A stretch of DNA of 64,000 nucleotides from Candidatus Saccharimonadota bacterium. GTDB taxonomy: Bacteria; Patescibacteriota; Saccharimonadia; Saccharimonadales; Saccharimonadaceae. This document shows, piece by piece, positions 1 through 45,625 of this stretch; the stretch's first letter is position 1; each line of letters starts with the position of its first letter. The DNA lies in the NCBI GenBank assembly GCA_017531585.1, contig JAFXKT010000001.1:310001-374000 (forward strand). The letters run 5' to 3'. Both the position numbers and the translations under genes were made by a program. The notes below the pieces were generated by a model, which was given only the letters and a program-made list of their open reading frames with translations, ran no database searches and was not told the origin of the DNA.

Positions 1-1
1 T

Positions 2-3000
2 GGCGATGCGACGAACAATGCGACAAACGAAGCTACTGCTGGTTGGAACGGTGGTGGTTCAGGTAGTACTGATGGTTCTGGTACGGAGAGTAATGGTAAC
101 GATAATGGCGGTGGCGGCGGTGGTGCTTCCGATATTCGCTATTTTGGTTCTATGAGCATTACGGCCGATGATCTAGTTTGGAATTCCAGCCTTGGTTTGG
201 CTTCCCGTGTCATGGTTGCTGGTGGTGGTGCTGGTTATGGCCCATACAATAACAACACATCTTTGGCTAACAAGTCCCTATCTTCCTATGGTGGTTACTA
301 TTTGAACAACACCGGCGGTAACGCTTTTGGTGTTGGTGCTAACGGTGGCGTTATTGACTGGGGTGGCCAGCCTGGTGGTGGCGGTGGTTACTGGGGTGGT
401 GCCAAGAACAGTGGTGTTTCTTATGGTGGTACAAACTATATTTCTGGTCATCTCGGTAGCTTGGCTATTGTTTCTTCATCTTCGACTAACTGGCGCCTCG
501 ATTCCAATGGCAACACCTGTACGGCTGCAACTGCTTTGACTGACGTCCTATGTTCTGTTCACTACAGCGACTTGAAGTTTACCTACACGACATCTTCTTA
601 TGGTTACGAAAGAATGCCAAAGCCAACTGACTTTTATGACACAGTTGAGCATGGTAGCTACACGAACGGTTATGTCCGCATTCGAGAATACTATCCAAAT
701 GATGATACGACTCTTCGTAGCTTGGTTGTAGTTGGTGAAGAGCTTGATCAAGATTTCGATCCGGAAGAGCACGAATATGTTGTCGATGTCGAAGCCGATA
801 CGACTTATGTTGATGTTACGGCTGTTGCAAATGATTCCGTTGCTTTCGTTAGTGGTGCTGGTAGGCACTATATTGCAGTTGGCGAATCGAAGGATATTGT
901 AATATCGGTTACGGCTGAGGATGGTACGACTAACGTTTATACCGTTACGGTTAATCGCCCGCTAACAGATAATCAGCTCTTCGGCTGTACTGGTTATCCT
1001 CAGATCTTTACTGCTCCACGCGAAGGTTACTACTATGTCAATCTTTGGGGTGCTCAGGGTGGTAAAGGTACGCGCGATACAACTGTAGGTGATGGTGCAA
1101 AAGGTGGCTTCACTCGCGGTATGATTCACTTTGATGAAGGTGATCAGGTTTATGTTTACGTTGGTTGTAAGGGTGGTGATTCGACAAACTACTACAAAGC
1201 TGTTGGCGGTACTGGCGGCTGGAACGGCGGTGCTAACGGTGGTAAGGATGATTCCGATAACAACGATACTGACAACGGTGGTGGCGGTGGTGGCGCTACG
1301 GATATCCGCCTAAGCGAGAGCTTGAATTCTCGTATCATGGTAGCTGGTGGTGGCGGCGGCTTCGCTTATTACTCTTACAATGCTATGGGTGACCGTGTTG
1401 GTGGTTACAACAAGAACAATACGAATGGCTATCAGTTTGGTCAGGGCCAGGCTGGTTATACTCACAGCAATAGTACTGGTACTGGCGGTGGTGCTGGTGG
1501 TTATTGGGGTGGCGCTAGCTCGGATAGGGCAGGTTTCGGTGGTACGAGTTTCGTATCTGGTTACAAGGAAAGCCTGGCTATTGCTTCGGTAGATTCTACT
1601 GCTTGGAGAACTGACAGCGAGGGTAATGCTTGTACGACCGCTTCGACAGATATTACTTGCTATACTCACTATTCTGGTAGAAAGTTTACAAACGTTCAGG
1701 TCATGAATGGTGGCCAGACAATGCCAGATCCATTCGATGCAGAAACGGATATTGTTGGTAATTCTGGTGATGGTGCTGCTCGCTTTACTTATGTTGTTCC
1801 TTCTTCCGATAACGATTTGAAGTCCTTGGTTCTTAGCGCTGGCACTTTAACCCCAGCTTTCAGTGCGAGCGAAACTCAGTATACAGCAGATATTCCAGCT
1901 GATCTCAATAGCGTTCAGGTTACAGCAATTGCAAACAGTGATGTCGCATATGTCGCTGGTAATGGCGTTTATGATCTTGCTGCTGGTGAGAAGAGAACTG
2001 TTACGATTGTCGTAACGGCAGAAGATGGCAGTACGAAGACCTATTCAATCGATGTTTATCGCCGCGCAATCGCAAGCTTGACGGTTACCGACGCTGAAGG
2101 TACGGATATTCCTCTAGCCTTCGATCCAACTACGAAGATTTATTCCGCAACGCTTGATGAAGATCAGACTTATGTAACGATTGCTGCAACAGCTATCAAT
2201 CCAGCAATGGTGGTTGAGGGTGAGGGTACTTTCCCGGTTCCTGCTGAATTTGCAGAATATGAAGTTAAGCTAAAGGGTAGAAATGCTCAGGGCGAGCTTG
2301 TTACTGACGAATATACAGTTGAGCTTTATCGTCCAGCAAAGCAGGGCGTTCAGGATGTTGATTTCTTTGTAAACGACGTTAAGGTTACAAATTGCAACGC
2401 TTCGACTTTCGAGTGTGAGGCAAATACTTACACTAATACAACAAAGATTTACCCAAGGACTAATTATCCAAGTCAGTACATTGTTGATTATTCGACGGGT
2501 AATCAATTTGATGAAGAAGAGCCTCTCATGCTCGAGACTCCTGTTGGTACTACGACCTTGGAAGTTTCTGTTGATGCTGAGGACATGAGCGAGACTCGTA
2601 TCTATACTCTTAACATTCATCACAATCTAACAACCAAGCTTCAGGCGCTTGAGATTACCAACTATGACACTGATCTTCTTGATGCTCTAGATAATGCTGG
2701 CTTTAACCCAGAGGTTACAAGCTATCATATTACAATTCCAAAGACTTACTATGATGTTGAGCTCAACGCTGTTCCGTCGGTTGATGGCTACTATGTAAAG
2801 ATTGAAGATAATCATGATCTTACAAATACCTATGGCACAATTACGATTACTGTTTGCGAAGCTTCCGACAAGTGCGTAACGAGTGAAGACGACGATATCA
2901 TCGACCCAACAGTTTATACGATTTCTTACACCAAGGTAGATAACAGTAATAGCTACGATATGATGGGTAGCTACCAGGTATTTACCGCTCCTGTAAATGA

Positions 3001-6000
3001 CCGTTATTACATGCAGGTCTGGGGTGCTCAGGGTGGTTCGATGAGCTGTGATAACTGGACTGGTAAAGGTGGTAAGGGTGGTTATGCTGCTGGTTTCTTG
3101 GATATGCAGGCTGGCGAGAAAGTCTATGTCTATGTAGGTCAGGCTGGTGAAGGCTATAACTGTCGTCAGTCTAACTACTATGGTGGTTGGAACGGCGGCG
3201 GTACTACTAACGGTGGTGCATCTGGCGGTGGTGGCGGCTCGGATATTCGTTACTTTGGTAACCATGAACCAAGCAGTGCAGAGCTTGCATGGAATAGCGA
3301 ACTAGGTCTTCGCTCTCGTATTATGGTCGCCGGCGGTGGTGGTGGTTCGAACGACCATACTAGTGGTGGTTACGGTGGTGGCCTTACTGGTGGTACCGGC
3401 GAATACGCTGGTGGTGCTTGTAACGGTGGTGATGCTATTGGTTATGGCGGTACTCAGCTCAATGCTGGCTCTGGTTGGCCATCTGGTGCATTTGGTGTTG
3501 GTGGCGGTCTTCCAAATACTCAGCCTGATGGTGGCTCCGGTGGTGGTGGCTACTGGGGTGGTGGTAAAGCTGGTGGTTGTAACCGCGCTGGTGGTGGTGG
3601 CTCTGGCTATGTTTCTGGTTATAAGGGCGCTATCGCTGTAGAATCTGCTGGTACAAATAGCCCACGCAGTGATTCTAACGGCAATATTTGTACTGCCGAA
3701 ACTGCTGCGACGGACGAAAAATGTTCTTACCACTATTCTGGTAAGGTTTTCGAAGAATCCGTCCTAAAGGGTGGTAATGAAGAAATGCCAACCCATGATA
3801 ACAAGAGCACGATGACTGGTAATTCTGGCTCTGGTTATGCTTGGATTCGTACGCTCAGCAAGAACGACTATCTCTACAACTTGACCGCTACTCTTGGTGA
3901 TGGCCAGAAGGCTTTCAGTCCAGTCTTTGATCCAACCACGCTAACTTACACTTTGACGCTAAGCCCATATGATTACTATGTCGATTTTGAAGCAGTCGCT
4001 CAGGATGTCGATGCAAAGATTGAGCTTGCTAACGATCAGACAGATAGCGTTGATGATAAGAATCGCCCAGTTGCTTCGACTCGCGTTAATGTTGAAACCG
4101 GTTCTCAGATTCAGAACATCAAGGTTACTAGCCCAGATGGCAAGAATCAGACCTATACAATTAATATCGTTCGCCCAGAAGGTGATAACAATACAACTCT
4201 TCTCAAGAGCCTTAGCGTAAATGCTGGTACGATTCAGGATACGTTCACGCCAACCCATAAAGCTTATACTGTAGATATTCCTGGCCGCTTCTTCGATCTA
4301 GACGTAACTGCAGTCCCATTTGCAAATGATGCAACAGTTACAATTACTGGTGATAAGTTCCTTGATCATACTACCGGTACAATCACGATTACAGTTTCGA
4401 AGGCTGGTCTCGAAGATTCCGTCTACACGATTGTTTATACCAAGGTAGATAACAACGCTGCAGATTTCCCATACAACTCAAGCTGTCAGCCATTTACTGC
4501 AGAGCTAACTGGTATGTATCATGTTCAGCTTTGGGGTGCTCAGGGTGGTTACCCAGTAAACAATACCTATACTGGTGGTAAGGGTGCTTACACTGAAGGC
4601 GATCTTGCACTTAATGCTGGCGATACTATTTATGTTTGTACTGGCCAGTTTACGAATGGTAACGGCGCAACCGTCGGTGGTGGTGGCGCAGGTAACAGCA
4701 ATAGCGGTTATGCTGGTGGTGGCGCTACGGACGTTCGCTGGTTCGGTGATGGTATTACTCCTACAAGCGCAGAGCTTGCTTGGAACAATATCAATGGTCT
4801 AAGTTCTCGTATTATGGTCGCAGCCGGTGGTTCTGGTGCAGTAACTTACACTACGAGTCGCTATTACAACAGTGGTTCTGCCGGTGGTGTCTTCAAGGGC
4901 TTCGATGGTAAGAATAATTATGAACCTTACTTTGGTCAGCCTAACGATGTTTCGACTGGTGGTACACAAATTGCTGGTGGTAATGCTGCGGATAATACAA
5001 ACTCTGAATACCGCAACGGTAAATCAGCTGGCGCAAATGGTCAGTTTGGTATCGGTGGTAACTCTGGCGGATGGGGTTCTGGTGCTGGTGGTGGCTACTT
5101 CGGTGGCGGCGGCGGCGCAAGTTCTGACTGGTCTGTAACTACCGGTGCTGGTGGCTCGAGCTATATCTCTGGTCACACTGGTTTCATTGCAATCGGTGCA
5201 AAGGGTAGCATTGGTGCACGCTTTGATTCGAATGGCGAAATCTGTCAAGAAGGTACAACAGATAATCTTTGCTCGGTTCACTATTCTGGCAAGGTCTTTG
5301 TAGAATCGAAGGCAATTGATGGCGAAAGCGAAATGCCAACCCAGGACAACACTGGTACTCAGATTGGTAATGCTGGCAATGGCCACGCTCTTATTACCAA
5401 GGCTTCAAACGATGCTTACCTACGCAGCATCAAGCTTTCTCGCAACGGCGCAGAACTTCTTGCTTCGGAGATGGCTTGGGATCAGGATTTTGATGCTTTG
5501 AAGTATAACTATACCGTAGAACTCGATTCGACAATTGAGTATGTCGATGTCGAAGGTATCGCACATAACGAAACCGCAGTTGTTACTGGCAATCAGAGAG
5601 TCACGCTTGATTATGGCGAAACAAGGGTTGTTACTCTTGGTGTAACTTCTGGTCTTAATACAAGCAAAACTTACACTGTTACTTTGACCCGTAAACAGGC
5701 CGAAGGCTCAACTCTTCTCAAGAGTTTGTCTATCGCAGACGCTAAGTTCAATCCAGACTTCGACAAGAATACAAAGACTTATGATGTCGTTCTAAAGAAG
5801 GGCGCAATCGATACAAAGGTTCTTTACGAAAAATTTGATAACGATGCAACAGTTACAATTACCGACGAAAATGGCGAAGCTTTCGATGCAAACGATAGCA
5901 AGAAGCTCTTCGGTGATGAAGGTACAATTACTGTTACTGTTAGCAAGACTGGTCTAGTTTCAGCAGTTTACACATTGAACTGGACTAAGGACGAAGGTAA

Positions 6001-9000
6001 GACCGAGTTCGAGTACGACGATAAGCCGCAACAGTTTATTGCGCCAATCTCTGGCTATTACAAGGTTGAGCTTTGGGGTGCAGAAGGTAACTCTCCTATC
6101 GGAAGCAAGCTAGGTGGTAACGGTGCATATACGAGCGGTAATATCTGGCTCAATAAAGATGAAGTTCTTTGGATCTATATTGGTGAACACCGCGAAGGTA
6201 ACCAGTCTCAGAGCGCGGCAACTTATAGCGATAATAGCTCGGCTGGCTTTGCTGCTCCAAGCTTCAACGCTGGCTCTATCGGTGGTCCATCTGAAAGCTC
6301 TGGCTACGGTGGTGGTGGCGCAACGGACGTTCGCCTTGTAAACGGTAAGTGGCATGACGCAGCCAGCCTTGCAAGCCGTATTATGGTCGCAGCTGGTGGT
6401 GGCGGTGCAGTTAGCTACGCTGGTGGTGCCTACGGTGGTAACGGTGGTGCACTAGTTGGCGAACAGGGTGCCCGTGCAATCTCTGGTAGCTCTGCAATTG
6501 TAAGCTCGCTACCTCAGGGCGCAACCCAGACTACTGGTGGCGCATCTGGTGTTATTACTGAAGGTTATGGTGGTAACATGGGTCCAGCTGGTCAGTTTGG
6601 TGTCGGTGGTAACGCTGGCGGCTCAGGCGTCGATCTCCAATATGGCGGTGGCGGCGGTGGCGGCTACTGGGGTGGTGCCGGTGGTGGCCATACAGGCGGC
6701 GTCGTCATCTCTGGCGCTGGTGGTTCGAGCTATATCTCTGGCTACAAGGGCTCAGTCGCAATCTATAGCGCAACTGATACCTCTCCACGCAAAGATAGCA
6801 ATGGCAACCTCTGTACCGATGGTACTCAAGATGTCGTTTGTTCTTATCACTATTCTGGCAAGGTATTCTATAACGGCGTAATGCGCGCAGGCGTAAACGA
6901 AGGTTATGGTAAGGCAGTTATTACAGCTCCAAGCGTAGATAATTACCTCAAGAGCCTAACAGCAGACAAGGGTTCCTTCGACAAAGCCTTTGCTCCAGAA
7001 ACAGACGAATATACCTTAACACTTAGCGCAACAGATACACGCGTCGAACTGTTCGCAACACCAAACGACAGTACTTCAGTCGTTGCGGGCGCAGGTGAAT
7101 ATATTATTAACGGCAACCGCGACATAACAATCACGGTTACTGGTGCAGATGGCACTTCGCGCAACTATCTAGTTCATATCGTTCGTCCAGCTATCGAAGG
7201 TCATTCAACTTTGCTTTCGAGCTTGACGATTGCAGATTATCCAATCGAATTCTATCCAAATACATTTGAATACGATATCGATATCACAGCAATCACGACT
7301 TCTTTGAACCTTAACTACACAACCTTCGATAATACAGCAACCGTAGCAGTTGCTGGTAATGATCATTTCTATGATGACGAAGGAACAGTCACCTTAACGG
7401 TCAGCGCAACAGGCGAAACCGATTCGGTTTACAAGATCAACTATCATCGTGATAACGGTGTAGAGAATACCTATGGTTCAACTGGTAGCTACCAAACCTT
7501 TACAGCTCCAAAAGATGGCTACTACACAATTGAGCTTTGGGGTGCAGCTGGTGGCATGGGTATGCGCGATATTGTCCGCATGGCTGGCGCAGCTGGTGGT
7601 TATACTCGCGGTAAAGTCTTCCTACATGCTGGTGATACGCTTTACATCTATGTCGGTGGCAAGGGTGGTATGGCAGAGTTTGGTTACTCGAAGCAGTATG
7701 GTCTTGGCGGCTGGAACGGTGGTGCGAATGGCTCGTCCGACCCAGATAGTCTTTCCGAAGGCGACTCCGATAACGGTGCTGGTGGTGGCGGCGCAACCGA
7801 TGTCCGCTGGTTCGGCTCAGGTGTAACACCAAGCGAGGCTGACCTCGAATGGGATAGCGAACTTGGTCTTGCAAGTCGCGTCATGGTCGCAGGCGGTGGC
7901 GGTGGCTTCGGTTACAGAAGCGGCTACAACGTCTACTTCCATACCGGTGGTTACTACTACAGCAACGAAAACGGCTACCAGTTTGGTAAAGGTCAACCAG
8001 GTATCTCCTACTATTACACCGGTTCCGGTGGTGGTGGCGGCGGCTACTGGGGTGGTAAAGCCATCAATAACGGTAGCGACAACGGCGCAGGTTATGGTGG
8101 TACAAGCTACGTCTCTGGTCACCTTGGCGGAAGCATCGCAATCGAATCCGCAAGCAGTACAAGCTGGAGAAAGGATTCAACCGGGGAAACAACCTGTACG
8201 ACCGCACTTGCAGCAACCGATATAACATGTACCTTACATTACTCTGGATTAGTCTTTACCGATACGGCAATGATTAGCGGTAACGGAATCATGCCGAGCC
8301 CATCAGGCGAAACGATGAGAGGTAACAACGGAGACGGTGCAGTAAGAATTACTTACGATAACCTCGATGACGACAATTTCCTCAAGAGTCTAACGGTAGA
8401 TCCAGGAACCTTAACACCAAGCTTTGATAAAGAAACAACAAGCTACACGGTGAACTTGCCAAGCAACCAGGCGATGACAACTATCGATGCGAAGGCAAGC
8501 AGCAAGGACGCAATTATAAGCGGACTTGGAGAATACAGAGTTAATGCTGGCGAAAGCGCAACCGCAAACATTATTATTACGGCAGAAAACGGTATTACTC
8601 GCACCTATACAGTTACAATCAATCGCGCGGCGGTCACGGGACACTCGACCAAGCTCGAAAGCCTCGCAATTGCGGAATATCCAAACTTCATCAGAAATTT
8701 CGATAGCGATACATTGAATTACAGCTTGGTAGTATCCGCAAAAACATACGACCTTAACATTACAGCAGTTCCATTCGACGATGAAGCAACGGCAACAATC
8801 GAAGGTGATCATAATCTTGGCGTAGACGGCGGAACGATAACAATTACAGTTACGCATACTGGCCAAAGCCCAACAACTTACACGATTACTTACACGCGTG
8901 AGAAATCCAATAAGACTTCGGGTTATGGTTGTACTGGAAACGTTCAAACCTATACCGCACCTTACTCTGGAAAGTTCAAGATTGAAGCCTGGGGCGCACA

Positions 9001-12738: not shown

Positions 12739-15700
12739 CTACTCGAGAAACAACTATCTTGATGTCTTGAATATTAGCTCCTTTAAGAAAGTGAACGGAG
12801 TTGAGGTCGAAGAAGATGAAAATCCTCAGTTGAATCCTCAGTTCGTCGCTCCGGTAAACGGTTCGGCTCATGCTACAGAATACTGGCTAGAGCTCAACTC
12901 AGAAGAGGACGCAGTTAATATTGAGGCTCGCCCAGCCGACGACAAATCTACTGTTGTAGGAACGGGTCGCCGCAATATTCCAGCCGAAGGTTACGACTGG
13001 GCGCTAACGGTTACAGCAGAATCTGGCGAACAAAGAAACTATGTAATTCATATCACTCGTCCAAAGTCTGCAACAAACAAGCTCCTTAGTATTCAGCACT
13101 CAGGTTTGATGCCAAGCATCTGTGAACGTGATACGACGAAGTTCTGTAATCTCAGTCCAGAGACCTTCAGTCCAAACGTCAATAATTACACAATGACGGT
13201 TCCGGCCGGTCAGCGTGAAATTAGCTTCACGGTCAATATGGGCCACTACTACGAAAAGATTTACTTCTCGCAGGACACTGGCCAAGAGCTTGAAGACCTA
13301 ACGCCTGGCGAAGAGGACGAGCGCACCGAAAGTTATGTATTTAACTACGATAAGCTTCGCCTCAAAGCTGGATACAACCAATTTAAGTTCCGCATCGTTT
13401 CAGAAACTGGTGAAGAGAACACGTACATTTACAATATCTATCGTGATACAACCGATGACAACTACCTCGATAATCTCGAAGTAGTCTATCCAACGGGCGT
13501 CGATCTAGGTTTCGACTATCTAGTTACCGAATACGCCTTCAGGGTAGAAAACAACGTTACGGGTGTCTCGCTCAAGATTACGCCAGATTCCGAGCTCGCT
13601 ACTTACGAAATTAGCATGAGCAACGAAGAAGGCGAGATTGGCTGTGAAGATCACGATGGAGATGATACTGCTGATTCAGATTGTGGCGGCCTAATCGTTG
13701 GTGAAAACTATATCAATGTGACGGTTACGGCTCCTGGCGATCCAAATGATCCGAGCGTGCCGAAAGAGAAGCGTACTTACACTCTCACGGTCTATCGCGT
13801 AGCAAGTGGTGATACCTTGCTCAAGACCTTGACGGTAAAGAATGGCTCGACAAATTACCAGCTCAGCCCAGAATTTAACCCAATCAAGACGGCATACACC
13901 TTAACAGTTGATAACGAGATTAGTAGCGTAGCGGTGGCGGCAACGCCAAACTCTAGCACGACTACAATCTTTGGCGCAAAGACCTATTCTCAGACTCATG
14001 CTTTGAATACCGGCGATAATCAGATAAATCTTGTTACGACCGCCCAAAACGGCGCAACGGAAACCTACACAATCATGATTACTCGCCGCAAGAACAGTAA
14101 TACGAATCTAAGTAGCTTGAGTGTCGACGGCTTCAACTTGACGCCGAGCTTCAACAAGAATGTAGTAGAATACACTCTTAACGTTGGCGCTCAGACGAAG
14201 GAACTTGACATTACTGCGATTCCAGAAGTAAACACCTCGACTTACAAGATTACTGGCAACAGTAACTTTAAGAACGGTGAAAACAATGTCGAGATTACAG
14301 TAACAGCCGAAGATGGCAGCGAGAAGACCTATACGATTACAGTTAACCGCCAAGGTTACACGGATAATCATCTATCTAGCCTCACGGTCAGCGACGACAA
14401 TACAACCTACGAATTGTCGCCAGCCTTTGACCCAGACTACGATAGTGAAGACGGCGTCTATACGGTATCGATTCCGAACGACGTAAATCGCGTAACAGTA
14501 GCAGGCGAACTTGCAGGTCTAGGTTCGACAGTAACTGGTCTTGGTGAGTACGCACTCCCGACCGGTACAACAACTGCAAGAATAAAGGTAACGAGTGAGA
14601 CTGGCGATGTTCGCGAATATGACATCGAAATCACTCGCGCCAAGAGTAGCGATTCGACCCTTAAGAGTTTGGTCCTAACCGATACGAGCGGAAACATCCT
14701 TACCTACGAACCAGCCTTTGATCCAGCGACGACCGCATATACAATTACGGTTCCAAACGAAATCAGGGAAGGTATCGTAAGCGCAACGCCAACCAACTGT
14801 GGCGCAACGGTTACTGGTCCAGATACCTACGAATTTAACGTTGAGCTTGGTACTCACGTTGATATCGTAGTAACGGCCGAGGATGAATCATCATCGACTA
14901 CCTACACTCTTGATATCGCACGCCAGAAGAGTGGTAACACGAACCTTGCTAACCTCTATATGGAGGAGGCAATCATCTCGCCACGCTTCAATAAGGAAAA
15001 TAAATCCTATACAGCAACAGTACCTTACGAAGTAGATAGCGCAACAGTAATCGCAATTCCAGAAGATACAACTTCTAGAGCAACGATTTCGGGTAACGAT
15101 AACTTGGTGGTTGGCCAGAACTTGATTACGGTCACAGTAACGAGTCAATCCAACAAGCAAGATACATACACGATTACGGTTACGCGCAATCCGGAACCAG
15201 TCTTTAATTTGAAGCTCGAAGATCTCAAGGTAAAGAATGGTGAAACCGAACTTACGCTTGACCCAACATTCAATAAGAATGATGGTCGACAGCTCTTTTA
15301 CACAGTAGAAGTAGAATACGAAGTAGATAGCTTGGATATCTTCGCTAGAGCACAGGAAGATACGGCTGGCGTTGGAATTAACGGTGGCAGCGCAGTATTT
15401 GATACGTTCTCTGGCGATGCAGCCAGCGCACATGTTACCTTTGATGTTGGTACGAACCTCATTCCGATTCGCGTCACTCGTACAGATACGGTTGGTGGCA
15501 CTCCAATCACTGAGGAACGTGATTACCAGGTAGCAATCGTTCGCAAGCCAAGCGATGATCCTCGTCTCTCGAACTTGATTATCAAGAACGGCACCATCTC
15601 GCCAGCCTTCCAGCCATCACAAGATCCAGAAGATCTCATGGCGGACGACTACTACGAGGTAAGGACCGAAGCTTCGAACCTCAAGTTTAGTACAGTTAAG

Positions 15701-18700
15701 ATGTTCCCAGAACAGAAGGTGAAATATGTAATCACTGACGAACAGGGCAACGTTTTGACTAAGAACTACAAGTTGACAGATGGCGAAAGTGTAACGATTA
15801 CCTTCACGGTAACTTCCGCGCTTGGCACTCGTACAAAGGTTTATGTCCTTCATGTAACGAAGGCGACCGCAACGAGTGCCCGCCTCGCCGACTTGTGGGT
15901 CGAGGGCTTCCAAATCTCGCCAAGCTTCAATCCAGATACGAAGCATTATACATTGACGGTTCAGGATAATACCAAGTCCGTCCTCGTCTATGCAACCCCA
16001 GAATCTGAGTTTGCGACAGTGACGGGTACAGGTGGCTACCAGCTACCACTTGGTACAACAACTGCAACCATCAATGTAACTTCGGAAGATGGACAGAGCA
16101 CAGATCAATATACAATCGATATCACGCGCATTGGTTCGCATGATGCAACCCTTGCTGGTCTCGGTGTAGTTGGTCACGAGATTGATCCAGATTTCCATAG
16201 CAATGTCTATGAGTATTCAGTTCAGGTAGCTTACAATGTTGAAGATGTAACGATTGTTGCGGTAGCAAACAACGAAGAATCGATTATTACTGGTGACGGC
16301 CTTCATACGGTTCGCCGCGGTACAAATCGCTTCCCAGTTCGCGTAACGAGCGGTGCAGGCGACACGCTTACTTACTATGTGAATGTGATTCGCGATAACC
16401 CAGTTACAGCATTGCTCGATAATCTTGCAGTCAGAAATTACAATCTCGACACAGCATTTAACTCGAACATCTTCAGATATTCCGTAACGGTCGATAACGA
16501 AGTTTCTCAGCTCATTAAAGATACGGACCTCATCATTTCGCCAATCGATGCAAAGGCAACTTATGAAGTTTACGATGCAAATGGCAACCGCGTAACAAGC
16601 GAGATGCCACTTGAAGTAGGCCTCAATACTTATCGCATCGTGGTAACCTCTAGTGATGGTGAAGAAACGGCAACCTATACATTGGTAATTAATCGCCAGT
16701 CGTATAGCAATACCTTCCTCTCTAGCTTGCAGGTGGTCGCAAATGGTGAAGCTCAGGAAATGACCCCAAGCTTCGTTAAGACGCAGCTATCTTACACGGT
16801 GGTTGTAGACAACGACGTAACGGAAATTGATATCAACGCGGTAGCAGAGAACTCCTCAACGAGAATCTCTGGTACTGGCCACAAAACAAACCTCGCAGTT
16901 GGTGATAACAACTATGTTATTACGGCAACTTCGAGCGCTGGTATCTCTCGTAAGTACCTTATCAATGTGATTCGCGCAGGTAGTTCAAACGCTCTTATCA
17001 AGACGCTTGAAAAGATTACGGAGCCACACGGCACGATTACGAAGACTGGCACATATACCTACGATCTCGTAGTTCCTCGCACGGTCACCGGCCTTACCTA
17101 TGACGACTTCCGCGTCGTTCCACAGGATCCAGGCGCAACAGTAACCTTGCAGCCATCGCTCGATTTGACGACTGGCAAGAACGACTACTTGATTACGGTA
17201 ACATCGCAAGATGGCAAAGCCACACTCGATTACACGGTTTATGTCCGCTACGATAGCGATGACGAAACACGCATTCGTGGCCTCACAACAACCGTGATGC
17301 CGGAAGGCGGAAGTGAAATCGCAGGCGAGCTTGTTCCAGACTTCGATCGTAACACCTATCGTTACAACGTCCAGATTCGTGATGATATGGATATCGCAAA
17401 GCTTGTTCCTATCCCAATCAACACAAAGCAGACGATTGTAAATCTTCAGCATTTGACGGACGGCTACGAGCTTACCGAAGTAGATTCTTCGAACGAAGCC
17501 AGCTATCATACGACAGTTCCAATTAATGTCTTGGCGGAAAACGGCGACACGGCAACCTATTATGTAACTTACGATAAGAACATTGCCGTGGGTCGTACGC
17601 TCAAGGACATTTATGTAACTTACGATAAAGACGCATGTGCTCCAGCAATCGAAGCTGACGGCGTAACTTGCGACGACAGCCCAACCTACGATCGCGAAAC
17701 TTACTCATACCACATGGATGTGGCTGACGAAGTTAAGGAAATCACATTGCACTTTACCGAAGACAACAAGAATCAGATTACAAAGATTTACAAAGTTGTT
17801 AACGGTGAAGACGTCGTCATCTATGGTGGCGACACAACCGCACTTTACCAAGGTCAGGGCACGGGTTCTCTAGAGAACAGCCTCGAAACAGGCGACAACG
17901 TGTTTAAGGTGGTAATGACGAACAGTCTAAACCAATCGACAACTTATACTTACACAATTACGCGCGAGATGAGTCAAAACAAAGATTTGCGCAGTCTTCG
18001 CGTAACCAATCCAAGCGGAGCAAGCTACACGCCAAGCTTCGATAAGGATAGGCTAGAGTATACAGTTATCGTTCCTTACGACAATGACGAGATTGAGCTC
18101 GAAGCAATCCCAGTTCGTCCGGATGCGCCAACAACAGTTGAGATTCGTGGCCTCAAGAATTTGATGGTCGGTAGCAACGACTCAACAATTACAGTTACGG
18201 CACACAACGGCGATAAGAAACGCTATATCGTTCACGTAATTCGCGCGCCTCAGGTAAACAACTTCTTGAAGCAGCTTACGGTATCGACAGGTGAGATTCA
18301 GATTCTTACCCCAGTCTTCAACCCAGCAACCCAGAGTTATAGCTTGGTAATTCCAAGTTCGAACGACATGGTAACGGTTCAGGGTATCGCAAGTGACGAA
18401 GAAGCGAACGTTACGGTGATTGGTCTCGATGGAGCATCATCGACAGCCGAGGGTGAAGCTCAGCTCGAGTTTGGCGTAAAGCTTGGTCAGAACCTTGCTT
18501 ATGTCAACGTCGAAAAGGATGGCAGTGTTCGCACCTATACGCTAAACATTACGCGTACGCCACTCAAGAACACCTTGCTCAAGAGCCTCACGCTCAACAA
18601 CGCGCAGATTTATGAAGACTTCTATGGCACTCGCCAAGATTATACGGCTCAAATCAATTACGAATACACGAGCCTCGATCTAACGGCAATCCCAGAAGAT

Positions 18701-21700
18701 CAGGACGCAATCGTCAACATAATCGGCGCAGATAACCTGACGGTTGGTGATAACCTAGTCTATATTAAGGTCACAAGTTCAGATCTAACACAGACTCGTA
18801 CATATACAATTACGGTGACAAGAGACGGAAACCCAAGCAACGATCTCGAACAGATTATTGTAAACGGCTCAGTCGTAAACGCCGAAATGGAGCCAAGCTT
18901 CCCACAAGATAACGTAGTGGATTACAAGTACTCGATTAGAAACGATTACACACAGGTCAACCTTGATGCAGTAGCAGAGAGCGAGCGTGCAATCGTAACC
19001 GGTACTGGTGTCATCTCGCTCGATGAGGGCGACAACATTACGCCAATCACGGTAGTAAGCGAAAGCGGCGATGTAAAGATTTACAATATTAATCTTTATC
19101 GCAAGCATAGCAATTACCTCAGAACCATCACGACGAGCGAAGGTGACATAGACGGCTTCATTAAGACGGAAAGCGATTACAGCATTAGTGTTGGCAACTA
19201 TGTGAAATCGATTACGATTCTCGGCATCGCAGAAGACTCGAATGCAACGGTTGGCGGCAACGGCACCTACACGATTCGCCCAGGCGACAACCACATTGTT
19301 GTCTCGGTCGTAAGCGTAGATGGCGAACTTCGTAACTATAACATTACAGTTAACCGCGAAGTTTCAAGCAATAATTACCTCTCGAAGTTGATTGTTGCAG
19401 AAGGCACGATGAGTCCAGCATTCGATCGCGAAACGACAGAATATACGGTCGACGTGATTGATACGGTGAACGTCTTAAGCCTTGATTACGCAACGGAAGA
19501 TCCAGATGCTTCGACAACGGTTCTAGGCAACAACCTAACCTACGGCGATGGTGATGTAACAATCCGCGTAAAGGCAACCGATGGTAGTACACGCGACTAT
19601 GTAATCCATGTTAAGAAACATCCTCGCAGCTACTTCGCAAACTTGCTCCGTGATTTGTCGGTGGATAAGGGTACGCTCAGTCCATCATTCGAACCGTACA
19701 TTAACAACTACACAGTAAATGTTACAAACGACGTAACCGAGATTACGATCTCGGCGGTTCGCGAATCTGAAGATATCCGCATGACTGGTACGGGTACGAA
19801 ACAGCTTGAAATGGGCGAAAACGTATTCCCAATCGTCTTGACGGATAACGAAGGTAACGAAAACATCTACAAGGTTACGGTCTTCAGGGCAGAAGTTCCA
19901 GATCCTCGTCTAGCAAAGATGAGCTTCAATAACGGTACGGTTAGCCCAACCTTTAACAAGAACTACTTCAAGTACAAGGTAACGACTACAACTGATGTTG
20001 ATGCGCTCGAAGTTAACGAGATTAAGACGGTCGAATCGACAGCAAGCTGCGTAATCACCCTTTCGGGCACGGTTAGCTTCTGTTCGGATATGAAGACCAT
20101 CCCAATCACGGATAACACCGAATTTACGATTCGCGTAACGGCAAGTGACGGTCGCAGCACACGTACTTATCGTGTAAATGTGGTTCGCAACAAGTCGAGC
20201 AACAACAAGCTAGCGGTTCTCGAGTCGAATGTTGGTACATTGTTACCAGAGTTTGACCCAGATACAAACAACTACGTTTTGAACATCGATAGAGATGTCC
20301 AGAGCGTCCAGCTAAGCGGTTCGGCACAATCGGCACGCGCAAGCATTTCTGGCATGGGCGTAGTAAGGATTCAGAGCGATGAACAGGTTGCCAACATTAC
20401 GGTAACGGCAGAGAATGGCTCGAAGAATGTTTACTCGGTACTCATCCAGCGTGGCAAGGATAATGATTCGACCTTGAGTGATCTTCGCGTAAAGGGCGAA
20501 ACCTTGAGTCCAAGCTTCAATCCAGCTACAACAGAATATACTGTTGCGGTTCCTTATGAAACCGAACAGGTAGTTGTAGAGGCAGATGCAGCAAAGCCAA
20601 CCTCAATTGTTTCCGGCACTGGCACAAAGAACTTGAACGAGGGTGATAACCTAGTAACCGTAACAGTGACGGCCGAAGATGGCAGCCACACGGATTATGA
20701 GGTAACAATTCATCGTGCTTCGATTGATAGCGCAGAAATCTCTGACCTATGGATTGAAGAAGGTGAGCTTAGCCCAACGTTTGTAGCATTAACAACTAAT
20801 TACAATACGGTAATTCCAAACGAATTCGATCATATTACGATTCATGGCAAACTATCCTCCGGTGGCGCAACATTCGAGGTTGACGAAGATGGCACTTATA
20901 CTGTTGGCGACAACACGGTAATTGTCAGCGGCAATCACGACCTCCATATCGGCACAAATATCGTGACGGTAGAAGTTCGTAGCCCACAGGGCAAGAGTAA
21001 GACTTATAGGATTACAGTTAACAAGAGTAACGAAACCTACAACTTGCTCAAGAGTCTTGAAGTAAAGAACGGCAACACGGTCTTGACCTTGACGCCAAGC
21101 TTTACAGAAGAGGGTATTTACTACGAACTACCAGATGTCGATAACAGTGTAACGAGCTTAACTGTGACGGCTCAGCCGAAGGATGCAACTGCGACAATTG
21201 CAGGCGTAAGCTTCGATATGACCGACATGAGCGGCGGTTCAATTAGCGCAGGCGAGAAGGCAACCGGTACGGCAAGTCTTGAACCAGGCGAGAACTTCAT
21301 CGTTCTAAAGTCTACAAGCTCAATCGACATCGCTCGTACGGTAAGAATCCGCGTCGTTCGCATCGAGAAGACCAACAACAAGTTGGCAAGCTTGACCGTG
21401 AACCCAGGCATCCTTGTTCCAGGCTTTACGGCCGACAGAACAAGCTATGCAGTGTCTTTGAATAATAATCAGACATCAATCACGGTCAATGCGACGGCGG
21501 CGGATAATACCGCTACGGTAAGCGGTACGGGTACGTTCAGTAACTTGCCGGTCGGCAGAACAGATATTCCAATCACGGTCACAAGCCAAAGCGGCGATAC
21601 GAATACTTATACAGTAAGCGTAACGCGCGCGGCCAATGATGACCTAACGATTACGAATATCACGCCAAGCGATGGTGAGATGAATCCAGATGACGTATTT

Positions 21701-22606
21701 ACAGGGAATAGCTACGAGCTAGCAGTTGAACCGGGCGTAAACGTTGTAAGCTTTGATATTACATTCAAGGAGCCAACGACAATCGCAACAGGCAACCGCA
21801 ATGTAGTTCTAACAAGCGACGATCAGACGATTACAGTAACGGCTACGGCTGAAACTGGCCGCACGAGAATCCTAAGCTTCCATGTCACGCGTGGCGTGGA
21901 TGTGACGGGCGTCGAACTTGCAGAACTAAGCGCAAACATCGTAGTGACGGATACTTACCAGATTCAGGCAAGCGTCTTGCCAGCGAAGGCTTCACAGGAG
22001 GTAACTTATACTTCTGCTGATCCAAGCATCGCAACGGTGGACGAAAATGGCCTTGTAACGGGTATGAAAGCTGGCACAACAACGATTCGTGTCGCAAGCG
22101 TAGCAAACCCAGATGTGAACTCGGAGTTTACGATTGGCGTCATTGGAAACCGTATTGAAAGCAATGAGCTAGATGTCTATCATGAGGATACTGATAACGT
22201 AGAGTTTAGTTATGTGATTGGCGCAGAACCGGCAACGGAGCTAAGCGATTTCGTCACGTTATTCTTGAATGAGCCAGAGTATCTTCGTATTTATTCAAGC
22301 GAAGATGATGGCGGCAGCGAGATAACTGATGAGTCTACGATTATTGGTAGCTATATGGAAATCGCATTAGTAATCGAAGGCCATGAGTATGATCGCGTCA
22401 TGATACTTATCCGAGGCGATTTGGATGGTGATGGTTATATCACCAGTGCGGACAATGCTATCCTATCTGAAGCAATCGACAATGCTTCATATACTAACAT
22501 TGAAAACATGATATCGGACGTTGACTTCGATGGCTATCCAACTAGTGCGGATTATGCGAAAATAGCACAATTCATTGACGGTGAAATAACTACCGTCAAT
22601 GAATAG
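2..22606 (+). CDS. Giant secreted glycine-rich/cadherin-like repeat protein with C-terminal dockerin (5' partial)
   Basis: The frame is open from base 2, so the true start, and presumably a signal peptide, lies before the window; the ATG at 152 is internal. At least 7,534 residues are visible, ending in TAG. In order: the end of one glycine-rich domain; eight further glycine-rich domains beginning near bases 968, 2938, 4447, 5995, 7459, 8905, 10474 and 11947, mostly separated by two cadherin-like beta-sandwich domains (Cadherin-like_b-1 type, with YTxxVxR ends); about 30 tandem cadherin-like domains (12.7-21.9 kb); a Big_2-type Ig domain (about 21902-22145); and a dockerin. The glycine-rich units carry the ALK/LTK-type signature (FTAPxxGxYxxxxWGAQGG, then VAGGGGG). 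No C-terminal membrane segment or LPXTG is seen, so attachment may depend on the dockerin. A role in surface adhesion or host contact is inference. The next gene follows after 190 bases containing a terminator and a promoter. Confidence 0.9.
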   Translation, partial: GDATNNATNEATAGWNGGGSGSTDGSGTESNGNDNGGGGGGASDIRYFGSMSITADDLVWNSSLGLASRVMVAGGGAGYGPYNNNTSLANKSLSSYGGYYLNNTGGNAFGVGANGGVIDWGGQPGGGGGYWGGAKNSGVSYGGTNYISGHLGSLAIVSSSSTNWRLDSNGNTCTAATALTDVLCSVHYSDLKFTYTTSSYGYERMPKPTDFYDTVEHGSYTNGYVRIREYYPNDDTTLRSLVVVGEELDQDFDPEEHEYVVDVEADTTYVDVTAVANDSVAFVSGAGRHYIAVGESKDIVISVTAEDGTTNVYTVTVNRPLTDNQLFGCTGYPQIFTAPREGYYYVNLWGAQGGKGTRDTTVGDGAKGGFTRGMIHFDEGDQVYVYVGCKGGDSTNYYKAVGGTGGWNGGANGGKDDSDNNDTDNGGGGGGATDIRLSESLNSRIMVAGGGGGFAYYSYNAMGDRVGGYNKNNTNGYQFGQGQAGYTHSNSTGTGGGAGGYWGGASSDRAGFGGTSFVSGYKESLAIASVDSTAWRTDSEGNACTTASTDITCYTHYSGRKFTNVQVMNGGQTMPDPFDAETDIVGNSGDGAARFTYVVPSSDNDLKSLVLSAGTLTPAFSASETQYTADIPADLNSVQVTAIANSDVAYVAGNGVYDLAAGEKRTVTIVVTAEDGSTKTYSIDVYRRAIASLTVTDAEGTDIPLAFDPTTKIYSATLDEDQTYVTIAATAINPAMVVEGEGTFPVPAEFAEYEVKLKGRNAQGELVTDEYTVELYRPAKQGVQDVDFFVNDVKVTNCNASTFECEANTYTNTTKIYPRTNYPSQYIVDYSTGNQFDEEEPLMLETPVGTTTLEVSVDAEDMSETRIYTLNIHHNLTTKLQALEITNYDTDLLDALDNAGFNPEVTSYHITIPKTYYDVELNAVPSVDGYYVKIEDNHDLTNTYGTITITVCEASDKCVTSEDDDIIDPTVYTISYTKVDNSNSYDMMGSYQVFTAPVNDRYYMQVWGAQGGSMSCDNWTGKGGKGGYAAGFLDMQAGEKVYVYVGQAGEGYNCRQSNYYGGWNGGGTTNGGASGGGGGSDIRYFGNHEPSSAELAWNSELGLRSRIMVAGGGGGSNDHTSGGYGGGLTGGTGEYAGGACNGGDAIGYGGTQLNAGSGWPSGAFGVGGGLPNTQPDGGSGGGGYWGGGKAGGCNRAGGGGSGYVSGYKGAIAVESAGTNSPRSDSNGNICTAETAATDEKCSYHYSGKVFEESVLKGGNEEMPTHDNKSTMTGNSGSGYAWIRTLSKNDYLYNLTATLGDGQKAFSPVFDPTTLTYTLTLSPYDYYVDFEAVAQDVDAKIELANDQTDSVDDKNRPVASTRVNVETGSQIQNIKVTSPDGKNQTYTINIVRPEGDNNTTLLKSLSVNAGTIQDTFTPTHKAYTVDIPGRFFDLDVTAVPFANDATVTITGDKFLDHTTGTITITVSKAGLEDSVYTIVYTKVDNNAADFPYNSSCQPFTAELTGMYHVQLWGAQGGYPVNNTYTGGKGAYTEGDLALNAGDTIYVCTGQFTNGNGATVGGGGAGNSNSGYAGGGATDVRWFGDGITPTSAELAWNNINGLSSRIMVAAGGSGAVTYTTSRYYNSGSAGGVFKGFDGKNNYEPYFGQPNDVSTGGTQIAGGNAADNTNSEYRNGKSAGANGQFGIGGNSGGWGSGAGGGYFGGGGGASSDWSVTTGAGGSSYISGHTGFIAIGAKGSIGARFDSNGEICQEGTTDNLCSVHYSGKVFVESKAIDGESEMPTQDNTGTQIGNAGNGHALITKASNDAYLRSIKLSRNGAELLASEMAWDQDFDALKYNYTVELDSTIEYVDVEGIAHNETAVVTGNQRVTLDYGETRVVTLGVTSGLNTSKTYTVTLTRKQAEGSTLLKSLSIADAKFNPDFDKNTKTYDVVLKKGAIDTKVLYEKFDNDATVTITDENGEAFDANDSKKLFGDEGTITVTVSKTGLVSAVYTLNWTKDEGKTEFEYDDKPQQFIAPISGYYKVELWGAEGNSPIGSKLGGNGAYTSGNIWLNKDEVLWIYIGEHREGNQSQSAATYSDNSSAGFAAPSFNAGSIGGPSESSGYGGGGATDVRLVNGKWHDAASLASRIMVAAGGGGAVSYAGGAYGGNGGALVGEQGARAISGSSAIVSSLPQGATQTTGGASGVITEGYGGNMGPAGQFGVGGNAGGSGVDLQYGGGGGGGYWGGAGGGHTGGVVISGAGGSSYISGYKGSVAIYSATDTSPRKDSNGNLCTDGTQDVVCSYHYSGKVFYNGVMRAGVNEGYGKAVITAPSVDNYLKSLTADKGSFDKAFAPETDEYTLTLSATDTRVELFATPNDSTSVVAGAGEYIINGNRDITITVTGADGTSRNYLVHIVRPAIEGHSTLLSSLTIADYPIEFYPNTFEYDIDITAITTSLNLNYTTFDNTATVAVAGNDHFYDDEGTVTLTVSATGETDSVYKINYHRDNGVENTYGSTGSYQTFTAPKDGYYTIELWGAAGGMGMRDIVRMAGAAGGYTRGKVFLHAGDTLYIYVGGKGGMAEFGYSKQYGLGGWNGGANGSSDPDSLSEGDSDNGAGGGGATDVRWFGSGVTPSEADLEWDSELGLASRVMVAGGGGGFGYRSGYNVYFHTGGYYYSNENGYQFGKGQPGISYYYTGSGGGGGGYWGGKAINNGSDNGAGYGGTSYVSGHLGGSIAIESASSTSWRKDSTGETTCTTALAATDITCTLHYSGLVFTDTAMISGNGIMPSPSGETMRGNNGDGAVRITYDNLDDDNFLKSLTVDPGTLTPSFDKETTSYTVNLPSNQAMTTIDAKASSKDAIISGLGEYRVNAGESATANIIITAENGITRTYTVTINRAAVTGHSTKLESLAIAEYPNFIRNFDSDTLNYSLVVSAKTYDLNITAVPFDDEATATIEGDHNLGVDGGTITITVTHTGQSPTTYTITYTREKSNKTSGYGCTGNVQTYTAPYSGKFKIEAWGAQGGQGANKSTAYAGGYGAYTAGEIELVAGDVLYLYVGCQAPAHNWASTDLSAGGWNGGGAGGFYSNGNSSYAAGGGGGASDVALVQSAVTTDSQGRTVRTLESYASRIMVAAGGGGGGPNRHNDGQAGGGLSVIGRKVYYSDTAFTVNGGNQTSGYAFGYGLSSVSTSSSTRIGGGGAGYWSGYNDLNPPAATGPIEGVGGTSYISGHAGSVAVAGAGTSNPRTVNGLACVTGITTVDCSKHYSGKYFTNTVMIDGAGYSWTNVRGSYVKQPTADSQVQTGQSGDGYIKITPLVASENWYLDDITHKADGQTIGTLTQKNDPNAGFDPLATEYNLVINAYENYVDVQGVTDDITAVVTGGGEVALDEGESKDVILVVTDAAGDTKTYTVHVSRETYNGEHTTKLKTLTVALFDTNLTPHFSPEIMGYTIDIPENETDLNFSYTTFDNEAIVTVAGNQHLTAATGNITINVAHPDVSGTAVASSTYTIAYRKVKYVNKGYDYTGNYQVFTAPYDGDYLFEAWGAATGYGSGKGAYTKGTLSMLEGDTVYIYVGAAGASSTNSKRFNAGTGSSGGYNGGGSTDFRWFGRGVTPTDANLVWDSAVGRASRVMVAGGAGSGNSGTATGSGGKLVGLTGRAQNTPGGTQFAPGANEIPGTYTDSVFGIANGGCTGGNGYYPGGASSCANGAGGGSSFISGYLGAVAVSSVDDWTPRKDSLNATCTEESAKIDNTCSKHYSGLIFKNPEMYSGVEVIPTKDGTSTQTGNSGNGYARVQLIGDYTPAEYQNSKSRDNYLNDLQSDVGTLTQASNPSAGFDPLVLAYDLAIDKYDIDYKLTGTLSDDKATVTGLDVVRTIDDGEAQDITITVTSEYGDVRNYTVHVHRDAIEESDRTTLLEKLVVKNESADLTPRFRPITNYDPNNKTYEVEVLSGQVNMELDYKAFDSEKGATVAVAGDKYLSDSGYVTLTVSEAGLEDTVYRIHYTKVAADVNFSADCTKSVKKIEVLANGFYELQVWGAQGGTNMQDGRHTTAGGRGGYTKGVAELKKGEDLYVAVGCKGQDAVRGGAAAGGWNGGGNGWWDHSDDEAQGAGGGATSIQKSLIGDGQLRNYSNNRDDVLVVAGGGGGSQANSGGHGGGLTAYPPAGNGHGWYWGYEATQTYGYAFGYGENGYSRGSCGGYEAGGGGGGWYGGFTISHIDNNCGSGGGGSGYFKSGLLEAKSINGASTMPNTAGTGTMTGKTGNGYAKVVMRDYSRNNYLDVLNISSFKKVNGVEVEEDENPQLNPQFVAPVNGSAHATEYWLELNSEEDAVNIEARPADDKSTVVGTGRRNIPAEGYDWALTVTAESGEQRNYVIHITRPKSATNKLLSIQHSGLMPSICERDTTKFCNLSPETFSPNVNNYTMTVPAGQREISFTVNMGHYYEKIYFSQDTGQELEDLTPGEEDERTESYVFNYDKLRLKAGYNQFKFRIVSETGEENTYIYNIYRDTTDDNYLDNLEVVYPTGVDLGFDYLVTEYAFRVENNVTGVSLKITPDSELATYEISMSNEEGEIGCEDHDGDDTADSDCGGLIVGENYINVTVTAPGDPNDPSVPKEKRTYTLTVYRVASGDTLLKTLTVKNGSTNYQLSPEFNPIKTAYTLTVDNEISSVAVAATPNSSTTTIFGAKTYSQTHALNTGDNQINLVTTAQNGATETYTIMITRRKNSNTNLSSLSVDGFNLTPSFNKNVVEYTLNVGAQTKELDITAIPEVNTSTYKITGNSNFKNGENNVEITVTAEDGSEKTYTITVNRQGYTDNHLSSLTVSDDNTTYELSPAFDPDYDSEDGVYTVSIPNDVNRVTVAGELAGLGSTVTGLGEYALPTGTTTARIKVTSETGDVREYDIEITRAKSSDSTLKSLVLTDTSGNILTYEPAFDPATTAYTITVPNEIREGIVSATPTNCGATVTGPDTYEFNVELGTHVDIVVTAEDESSSTTYTLDIARQKSGNTNLANLYMEEAIISPRFNKENKSYTATVPYEVDSATVIAIPEDTTSRATISGNDNLVVGQNLITVTVTSQSNKQDTYTITVTRNPEPVFNLKLEDLKVKNGETELTLDPTFNKNDGRQLFYTVEVEYEVDSLDIFARAQEDTAGVGINGGSAVFDTFSGDAASAHVTFDVGTNLIPIRVTRTDTVGGTPITEERDYQVAIVRKPSDDPRLSNLIIKNGTISPAFQPSQDPEDLMADDYYEVRTEASNLKFSTVKMFPEQKVKYVITDEQGNVLTKNYKLTDGESVTITFTVTSALGTRTKVYVLHVTKATATSARLADLWVEGFQISPSFNPDTKHYTLTVQDNTKSVLVYATPESEFATVTGTGGYQLPLGTTTATINVTSEDGQSTDQYTIDITRIGSHDATLAGLGVVGHEIDPDFHSNVYEYSVQVAYNVEDVTIVAVANNEESIITGDGLHTVRRGTNRFPVRVTSGAGDTLTYYVNVIRDNPVTALLDNLAVRNYNLDTAFNSNIFRYSVTVDNEVSQLIKDTDLIISPIDAKATYEVYDANGNRVTSEMPLEVGLNTYRIVVTSSDGEETATYTLVINRQSYSNTFLSSLQVVANGEAQEMTPSFVKTQLSYTVVVDNDVTEIDINAVAENSSTRISGTGHKTNLAVGDNNYVITATSSAGISRKYLINVIRAGSSNALIKTLEKITEPHGTITKTGTYTYDLVVPRTVTGLTYDDFRVVPQDPGATVTLQPSLDLTTGKNDYLITVTSQDGKATLDYTVYVRYDSDDETRIRGLTTTVMPEGGSEIAGELVPDFDRNTYRYNVQIRDDMDIAKLVPIPINTKQTIVNLQHLTDGYELTEVDSSNEASYHTTVPINVLAENGDTATYYVTYDKNIAVGRTLKDIYVTYDKDACAPAIEADGVTCDDSPTYDRETYSYHMDVADEVKEITLHFTEDNKNQITKIYKVVNGEDVVIYGGDTTALYQGQGTGSLENSLETGDNVFKVVMTNSLNQSTTYTYTITREMSQNKDLRSLRVTNPSGASYTPSFDKDRLEYTVIVPYDNDEIELEAIPVRPDAPTTVEIRGLKNLMVGSNDSTITVTAHNGDKKRYIVHVIRAPQVNNFLKQLTVSTGEIQILTPVFNPATQSYSLVIPSSNDMVTVQGIASDEEANVTVIGLDGASSTAEGEAQLEFGVKLGQNLAYVNVEKDGSVRTYTLNITRTPLKNTLLKSLTLNNAQIYEDFYGTRQDYTAQINYEYTSLDLTAIPEDQDAIVNIIGADNLTVGDNLVYIKVTSSDLTQTRTYTITVTRDGNPSNDLEQIIVNGSVVNAEMEPSFPQDNVVDYKYSIRNDYTQVNLDAVAESERAIVTGTGVISLDEGDNITPITVVSESGDVKIYNINLYRKHSNYLRTITTSEGDIDGFIKTESDYSISVGNYVKSITILGIAEDSNATVGGNGTYTIRPGDNHIVVSVVSVDGELRNYNITVNREVSSNNYLSKLIVAEGTMSPAFDRETTEYTVDVIDTVNVLSLDYATEDPDASTTVLGNNLTYGDGDVTIRVKATDGSTRDYVIHVKKHPRSYFANLLRDLSVDKGTLSPSFEPYINNYTVNVTNDVTEITISAVRESEDIRMTGTGTKQLEMGENVFPIVLTDNEGNENIYKVTVFRAEVPDPRLAKMSFNNGTVSPTFNKNYFKYKVTTTTDVDALEVNEIKTVESTASCVITLSGTVSFCSDMKTIPITDNTEFTIRVTASDGRSTRTYRVNVVRNKSSNNKLAVLESNVGTLLPEFDPDTNNYVLNIDRDVQSVQLSGSAQSARASISGMGVVRIQSDEQVANITVTAENGSKNVYSVLIQRGKDNDSTLSDLRVKGETLSPSFNPATTEYTVAVPYETEQVVVEADAAKPTSIVSGTGTKNLNEGDNLVTVTVTAEDGSHTDYEVTIHRASIDSAEISDLWIEEGELSPTFVALTTNYNTVIPNEFDHITIHGKLSSGGATFEVDEDGTYTVGDNTVIVSGNHDLHIGTNIVTVEVRSPQGKSKTYRITVNKSNETYNLLKSLEVKNGNTVLTLTPSFTEEGIYYELPDVDNSVTSLTVTAQPKDATATIAGVSFDMTDMSGGSISAGEKATGTASLEPGENFIVLKSTSSIDIARTVRIRVVRIEKTNNKLASLTVNPGILVPGFTADRTSYAVSLNNNQTSITVNATAADNTATVSGTGTFSNLPVGRTDIPITVTSQSGDTNTYTVSVTRAANDDLTITNITPSDGEMNPDDVFTGNSYELAVEPGVNVVSFDITFKEPTTIATGNRNVVLTSDDQTITVTATAETGRTRILSFHVTRGVDVTGVELAELSANIVVTDTYQIQASVLPAKASQEVTYTSADPSIATVDENGLVTGMKAGTTTIRVASVANPDVNSEFTIGVIGNRIESNELDVYHEDTDNVEFSYVIGAEPATELSDFVTLFLNEPEYLRIYSSEDDGGSEITDESTIIGSYMEIALVIEGHEYDRVMILIRGDLDGDGYITSADNAILSEAIDNASYTNIENMISDVDFDGYPTSADYAKIAQFIDGEITTVNE
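12739..21901 (+). repeat. Tandem array of about 30 cadherin-like beta-sandwich domains
   Basis: Each unit is about 85-95 residues. It opens with a motif like (N/D)xxLxxLxVxxGxLxPxFxxxxxxY and closes with VTxExGxxxxYxIxVxR. The units match the bacterial Cadherin-like_b-1 family (PF12733) by eye. They are divergent at the DNA level, unlike the glycine-rich modules upstream, so this looks like an old array. It probably forms a long stalk; that role is inferred from repeat architecture. Confidence 0.8.
22415..22603 (+). other. Dockerin type I-like domain at the C-terminus of the giant protein
   Basis: Two calcium-loop motifs are visible, GDLDGDGYITSAD and SDVDFDGYPTSAD, each followed by a helix-like stretch. 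This is the duplicated F-hand layout of type I dockerins. It is the last folded element of the protein. Dockerins bind cohesin domains, so this end probably docks the protein to a partner. Confidence 0.8.
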
Positions 22607-30605: not shown

Positions 30606-30632
30606 TCGGGGAGGTGTGTAAAAGAAGTCTTG

Positions 30633-30662
30633 AAATGACCGGCAGGGGTGCCGGTCATTTTT
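30633..30662 (+). terminator. Strong Rho-independent terminator
   Basis: AAATGACCGGCA (30633-30644) pairs perfectly with TGCCGGTCATTT (30649-30660) across a GGGG loop, followed by further T. Confidence 0.92.
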
Positions 30663-33194: not shown

Positions 33195-33219
33195 AAAACT
33201 AGCCGAAAGGCTAGTTTTT
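33195..33219 (+). terminator. Rho-independent terminator
   Basis: AAACTAGCC (33196-33204), a GAAA tetraloop, GGCTAGTTT (33209-33217), then T. A compact, convincing hairpin. Confidence 0.9.
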
Positions 33220-33257
33220 CTTGGGGTGGTAGCCTATGGCGCTTGCTGTAACGGATA

Positions 33258-33283
33258 TGGTATAATTGTCTCAATCAGGAGGT
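33258..33283 (+). promoter_or_regulatory. Extended -10 promoter and strong ribosome site deciding the start of the next gene
   Basis: TGG plus TATAAT (33261-33266), then AGGAGGT (33277-33283) four nt before the ATG at 33287. An upstream in-frame TTG at 33266 overlaps the -10 and cannot be the start. Confidence 0.75.
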
Positions 33284-33286
33284 AAA

Positions 33287-33904: not shown

Positions 33905-33907
33905 AAC

Positions 33908-33941
33908 ATCAAAAAGACCCTCGTGCGAGGGTCTTTTTGAT
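33908..33941. terminator. Bidirectional terminator between convergent genes
   Basis: ATCAAAAAGACCCTCG (33908-33923) pairs perfectly with its complement (33926-33941). A-tracts and T-tracts on both sides let it serve the + strand membrane-protein gene and the - strand LOG gene. Confidence 0.92.
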
Positions 33942-33943
33942 GA

Positions 33944-45619: not shown

Positions 45620-45625
45620 AAAAAA

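Follow-up and report, generated by a model that had tools for sequence, protein, structure and literature searches.

A 33.7-kb block of three genes for large exported surface proteins, lying between conserved housekeeping genes, is present in one lineage of Candidatus Saccharibacteria and cleanly missing from another that is about 95% identical to it. The block makes up 3.3% of a 1.01-Mb genome, and its first gene encodes a protein of 7,671 aa; the other two products are 2,602 and 788 aa long. On balance, we lean towards reading it as a surface-fibre locus that is specific to certain lineages of host-dependent Saccharibacteria, its products exported by the Sec route, tied to the cell non-covalently, mediating contact, and its genes gained or lost as a block. 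Positions given without a contig refer to the window, the whole stretch of 64,000 nucleotides that was analysed (G000:C4:310001-374000, where G000 is the window's genome), and the three genes of the block, their domains and the hairpin and repeat at its right edge are on the forward strand unless stated otherwise.

The giant gene extends over window positions -409..22606 (G000:C4:309591-332606; 1..22606 inside the window), is 23,016 nt long and alone accounts for 2.27% of the genome. An earlier note on the window had described a frame from 2 to 22606 that is still open at base 2 and gives at least 7,534 residues, and had taken the gene to be truncated. Indeed, 7,534 codons precede the stop, and the start is an ATG at C4:309591, 411 bases before window base 2 and the first start after an upstream stop (sequence L005), which excludes a frame closed by stops just upstream and lacking a start. 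The ATG at 152 lies, as the note had said, within a glycine-rich domain, the first of the protein. The 7,671 codons contain no internal stop and end in a single terminal one, and with 37 cadherin-like and nine glycine-rich Pfam matches in one uninterrupted frame, a chance open reading frame can be dismissed. The idea of an exported protein from a small-genome organism has also gained support: by eye and by hydropathy, the first 36 residues (MGVIKARKFKLFIASILSIFGLFGLSVLLSSKNASA|ADE) form a Sec signal peptide, and the genome assembly comprises 1,014,252 bases in 6 contigs at 99.6% completeness.

The domain content is of a type associated with surface contact, in agreement with the role that the earlier note had suggested. 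Pfam recognises nine ALK_LTK_GRD domains (PF12810; 106-135 bits, cut-off 24.5), 37 cadherin-like beta-sandwich domains (PF12733), a single Big_2 domain and, at the C-terminus, a dockerin-like module. The glycine-rich domains are located at -148..685, 1022-1792, 3002-3853, 4508-5401, 6050-6925, 7511-8356, 8966-9874, 10535-11317 and 12002-12727, and the last eight (1022..12727) are interspersed with one or two cadherin-like domains each. This alternation takes up residues 1-4,380; the remainder is mostly an array of cadherin-like domains (13469..21628), in which 26 of the 37 were detected. The immunoglobulin-like Big_2 domain follows at approximately 21901..22099 (residues 18-83 of the stretch translated from 21851-22606), and the C-terminal module (22127..22606) ends in a duplicated Ca-loop segment resembling dockerin type I (PF00404), which scores 25.4 bits when scanned alone and 20.6 bits within a 3,834-aa piece (cut-off 22.9).

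The nine glycine-rich copies, concentrated in the N-terminal half, have diverged to 35-57% identity, and a profile built from them matches the solved ALK ectodomain (E 2e-4). An AlphaFold2 model of the domain based on the eight copies in the window reached pLDDT 64 and pTM 0.70, and the 21 best PDB matches in a fold search with that model were all ALK/LTK (probability 1.00, but a low TM of 0.27-0.44). The modelling thus supports a predicted core in common with ALK/LTK, with the rest of the domain poorly modelled. The Pfam family and top fold matches are the same as those of the glycine-rich domain of animal ALK/LTK receptor kinases; in contrast to these, the giant carries nine copies in an exported bacterial protein and has no kinase. 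Our literature search found no report of ALK_LTK_GRD domains in Saccharibacteria.

The second gene (22797..30605) encodes the 2,602-aa protein, with a signal peptide, an orphan N-terminal domain, 12 cadherin-like matches and a C-terminal dockerin-like module scoring 20.9 bits, just under the cut-off of 22.9. The third (30816..33182) encodes the 788-aa membrane protein, again with a signal peptide and an orphan N-terminal domain, followed by three cadherin-like matches, one strong transmembrane helix around residues 540-573 and a charged cytoplasmic tail; it is likely the anchor. All 52 cadherin-like matches of the genome, nearly all of them over the cut-off, fall in these three genes (37+12+3). 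The two orphan domains matched no Pfam family and no solved structure, and among 376 genomes of the family no convincing relatives were found except in the second carrier lineage described below; the AlphaFold2 prediction for the one in the 2,602-aa protein was uninformative (pLDDT 32). We considered these domains as candidate cohesins and found no support: neither has a Pfam match, and that of the 788-aa protein is unlike the cohesins of a related cluster (see below). A terminator-like hairpin with a T-rich 3' arm directly after the 788-aa gene closes the block (33195..33218; placed on the reverse strand in one listing). Whether the three genes form a single operon is uncertain since a second terminator-like hairpin, at 30632-30661, separates the second gene from the third.

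What the earlier note missed is that the gene belongs to a block of three and that a near-identical relative lacks this block. A DnaE search led to the empty site and named the relatives as Candidatus Saccharibacteria, sampled mostly from the guts of ruminants and other herbivores, among them Ca. Nanosyncoccus alces (55% over a C-terminal DnaE piece). In the near-identical relative (L077, by its coordinates genome G035), DnaE is 99% identical and the flanking DNA 93-97%, about 95%, identical to that of the window's genome, yet 47 bp take the place of about 33.8 kb. There, dnaE and a small helix-turn-helix gene are followed directly by a 205/212-aa gene, LOG, pfkB and rpe, and no cadherin-like domains were found in that genome. 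Most other relatives examined likewise have the dnaE-LOG-pfkB-rpe neighbourhood without the block. According to the junction alignment, an 8-bp repeat, TGGGGTGG, marks both edges (left -498..-491, right 33222..33229), the copies being 33.7 kb apart; it may stem from duplication of a target site or from a deletion through microhomology, and fits either polarity. The block looks like a lineage-specific, optional unit, gained or lost as a whole. A search of viral contigs with the N-terminus of the giant gave no relative and thus no sign of a phage origin. The short gene at the right edge of the island (33266-33904), encoding the 205/212-aa protein, is present in L077 and in the second carrier lineage, was not seen in L078, and is faster-evolving in L077 (dN/dS 0.25) than its neighbours. 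Between it and LOG, an inverted repeat whose 17-bp arms match perfectly and lie 2 nt apart (33907-33942) is likely a shared bidirectional terminator.

In the second carrier lineage (G024), of the same genus, the right end of the block lies on a contig of 8.6 kb and matches with 95.3% identity. This contig holds the anchor gene complete, the last 1,124 codons of the gene for the second protein and the same flanking genes. The 788-aa proteins of the two lineages are 97.5% identical with a dN/dS of 0.061, and the 1,124 codons of the second protein give 0.064; the two companion genes are under strong purifying selection. The earlier note had supposed strong selection for the giant; these figures cover its companions, as no orthologue of the giant was found, and the giant's absence from G024 is uninformative because the dnaE region is missing from that bin. 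The dS of the block (0.20) is similar to that of the flanking genes (0.12-0.23), which implies that the block descended with the genome; a recent transfer between the two lineages was considered and rejected on the same grounds.

Among 393 genomes of the class searched for cadherin-like domains, a comparable density was found in only one other, G376, from a different genus of the same family. Its cluster (L203:1154-19235, on G376:C11) encodes tandem exported proteins of 2,112, 2,649, 741 and 512 aa, all rich in cadherin-like domains. The order of its genes resembles that of our block, two large exported cadherin-like proteins preceding a single-helix anchor; the C-terminal modules of the four long proteins from the two genomes are related and align around two Ca-type loops, and the middle protein, of 2,649 aa, carries a C-terminal dockerin (33.9 bits against a cut-off of 22.9). 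The 741-aa protein, which has a transmembrane helix, matches the 788-aa anchor with 42% identity along 469 residues. Part of the resemblance among the cadherin-like domains of the two clusters is the generic similarity of repeats, and no similarity was found between the cytoplasmic tails of the two anchors. There are clear differences as well: the first protein has 2,112 aa against 7,671 and no PF12810 matches, the cluster lies in a different genomic place, and its membrane proteins, including the extra one of 512 aa, carry recognisable N-terminal cohesins (39.8 bits in the 741-aa and 25.2 bits in the 512-aa protein; Pfam cut-off 24.1). A dockerin is thus accompanied by cohesins within the G376 cluster, whereas the window's genome gave no match to cohesin (PF00963), and the N-terminal domain of its 788-aa protein resembles neither the G376 cohesins nor any Pfam family. 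With a long exported protein that bears the dockerin and two single-helix proteins that bear cohesins, the G376 locus holds a non-cellulosomal cohesin/dockerin pair. From its domains, the cluster suggests long fibres docked on a membrane anchor, and also how fibres without a sortase signal could stay on such cells.

In the arrangement that we propose, the giant would be a long Sec-exported chain of cadherin-like beta-sandwich domains, the nine ALK/LTK-type glycine-rich domains towards its N-terminus serving as outward binding heads for recognition and the Big_2/dockerin-like module at its C-terminus facing the cell. No LPXTG-like motif is present in any of the three block proteins, which sets them apart from LPXTG-anchored giant adhesins of Gram-positive bacteria, and neither the giant nor the 2,602-aa protein has a transmembrane helix besides the signal; the giant is therefore most likely held non-covalently. 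The link would most likely be a calcium-dependent docking to the co-encoded proteins, ending at the 788-aa single-helix protein. At about 4 nm per domain, the stalk could extend to the order of 200 nm, comparable with the cell, and the fibre may bring the cell into contact with a bacterial host or with some other surface in the gut. The docking chemistry and orientation of the fibre, its role in adhesion and its target are all our inferences. A more specific version, in which C-terminal dockerin-type modules form a membrane-tied, non-cellulosomal cohesin/dockerin chain on the single-helix anchor and the locus is swapped at a housekeeping site as a host-range cassette, is one that we entertain only tentatively. 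Host contact is the first candidate role, since cultivated Saccharibacteria live on bacterial hosts, with type IV pili driving the episymbiosis (PMC12206443, PMC10633639). Protective and substrate-binding roles stay as its alternatives.

The great number of domains and the lack of a binding motif with a demonstrated ligand would also suit a proteinaceous coat against phages, proteases or predators, in which the glycine-rich domains are structural rather than recognition heads. Giant Omnitrophota proteins have been proposed to form a coat (PMC10066038), and presence and absence between near-identical lineages fits phage-driven turnover. Nine glycine-rich domains diverged as far as these and clustered in the N-terminal half, however, resemble a repertoire of heads more than a uniform lattice, and Pfam finds no S-layer or peptidoglycan-binding domain in the block proteins; we regard a coat as unlikely, if worth keeping in mind. 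We are more doubtful still of a gut-substrate adhesin, which would attach the cell to mucin, plant fibre or the surface of the animal without involving a bacterial host. Dockerin and cohesin modules are typical of fibre-degrading gut bacteria and the close relatives come mostly from herbivore guts, but the three proteins contain no carbohydrate-binding module or glycoside hydrolase, so the dockerin-bearing glycoside hydrolases of a cellulosome are absent from them, and the cultivated members of the group need bacterial hosts (PMC10633639, PMC12206443).

There are two further explanations, and we give very little credence to either. The giant is known from one assembly only and a near-identical genome lacks the block, so the 33.7 kb might have been misjoined to the contig or the giant frame produced by mis-joined repeats. 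Collapse or chimerism is nevertheless improbable because the longest exact direct repeat anywhere in the island is 21 bp; moreover, the right junction recurs with the same flanking genes in the independent G024 assembly, and the codon usage of the block resembles that of resident genes (RSCU correlation 0.89-0.93; 0.87 for dnaE). With no orthologue of the giant for a between-species measure of selection, one could also picture a gene that has swollen as its repeats multiplied and that is now neutral or in decay, without a maintained function. Such a gene would hardly keep 7,671 codons free of internal stops, its repeats are strongly diverged and not freshly expanded, the paralogous glycine-rich copies differ by pN 0.32-0.39 against pS 0.63-0.71, and the companion genes evolve at a dN/dS of 0.06.

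The earlier note had called the giant one of the largest bacterial genes, which overstates the case. UniProt holds 41,754 "huge" proteins of at least 5,000 aa, a sizable share of them bacterial (PMC11573180), and among the giant reading frames of Omnitrophota, one in Velamenicoccus archaeovorus has 39,678 aa (PMC10066038); at 7,671 aa, the giant falls well short of those record proteins of tens of thousands of residues. Within its group it stands out, though not among bacteria at large: the next longest saccharibacterial frame seen with these domains has about 2,660 aa, in a comparison where fragmented assemblies hide long genes. The Omnitrophota resemble our organism in being ultrasmall and host-associated and in having giant proteins on their surface, which in some cases bear dockerins and are proposed to act in adhesion, but their giants are up to five times longer, with many transmembrane helices and few recognised domains (PMC10066038). 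Giant1-5 of Apilactobacillus kunkeei are extracellular proteins of 3,000-8,000 aa from consecutive genes that make up 6% of a small genome, with a patchy distribution and recombination; that species belongs to an unrelated phylum, the heads of Giant1-4 are beta-solenoids akin to those of serine-rich repeat adhesins, and the abstract mentions no ALK/LTK-type glycine-rich domains (PMC12863079). The predatory CPR bacterium Vampirococcus lugosii, like our organism one of the Patescibacteria and an epibiont, has a surface rich in giant membrane proteins of 1,392-4,163 aa thought to attach the cell to its host; they are shorter and built of DUF11, PKD, integrin and fibronectin domains, and we saw no description of a presence/absence block for them (PMC8080830).

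What lets ultrasmall episymbionts select a host and stay attached to it is still being worked out, type IV pili being one factor under study, and a locus present in one lineage and cleanly missing from one about 95% identical constitutes a natural experiment: carrier and non-carrier lineages should differ in partner if host range or attachment depends on the locus. Another member of the genus encodes two further large exported proteins, each of about 2,400 aa, that contain glycine-rich domains (L178:8864-20000 and L179:2-3313, on G006:C2); their architecture is unlike that of the giant, and they are apparently not orthologous to it. Within the window, a 906-aa protein at 45596-48316 has a Big_2 domain near its C-terminus and otherwise no Pfam match, and is possibly a further surface protein. 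Finally, upstream of dnaE lies the gene of a 1,749-aa acidic, Glu-rich protein without a Pfam match (L005:319-5568), which contains three near-identical repeats (SEKNFEREKALETFFG...).
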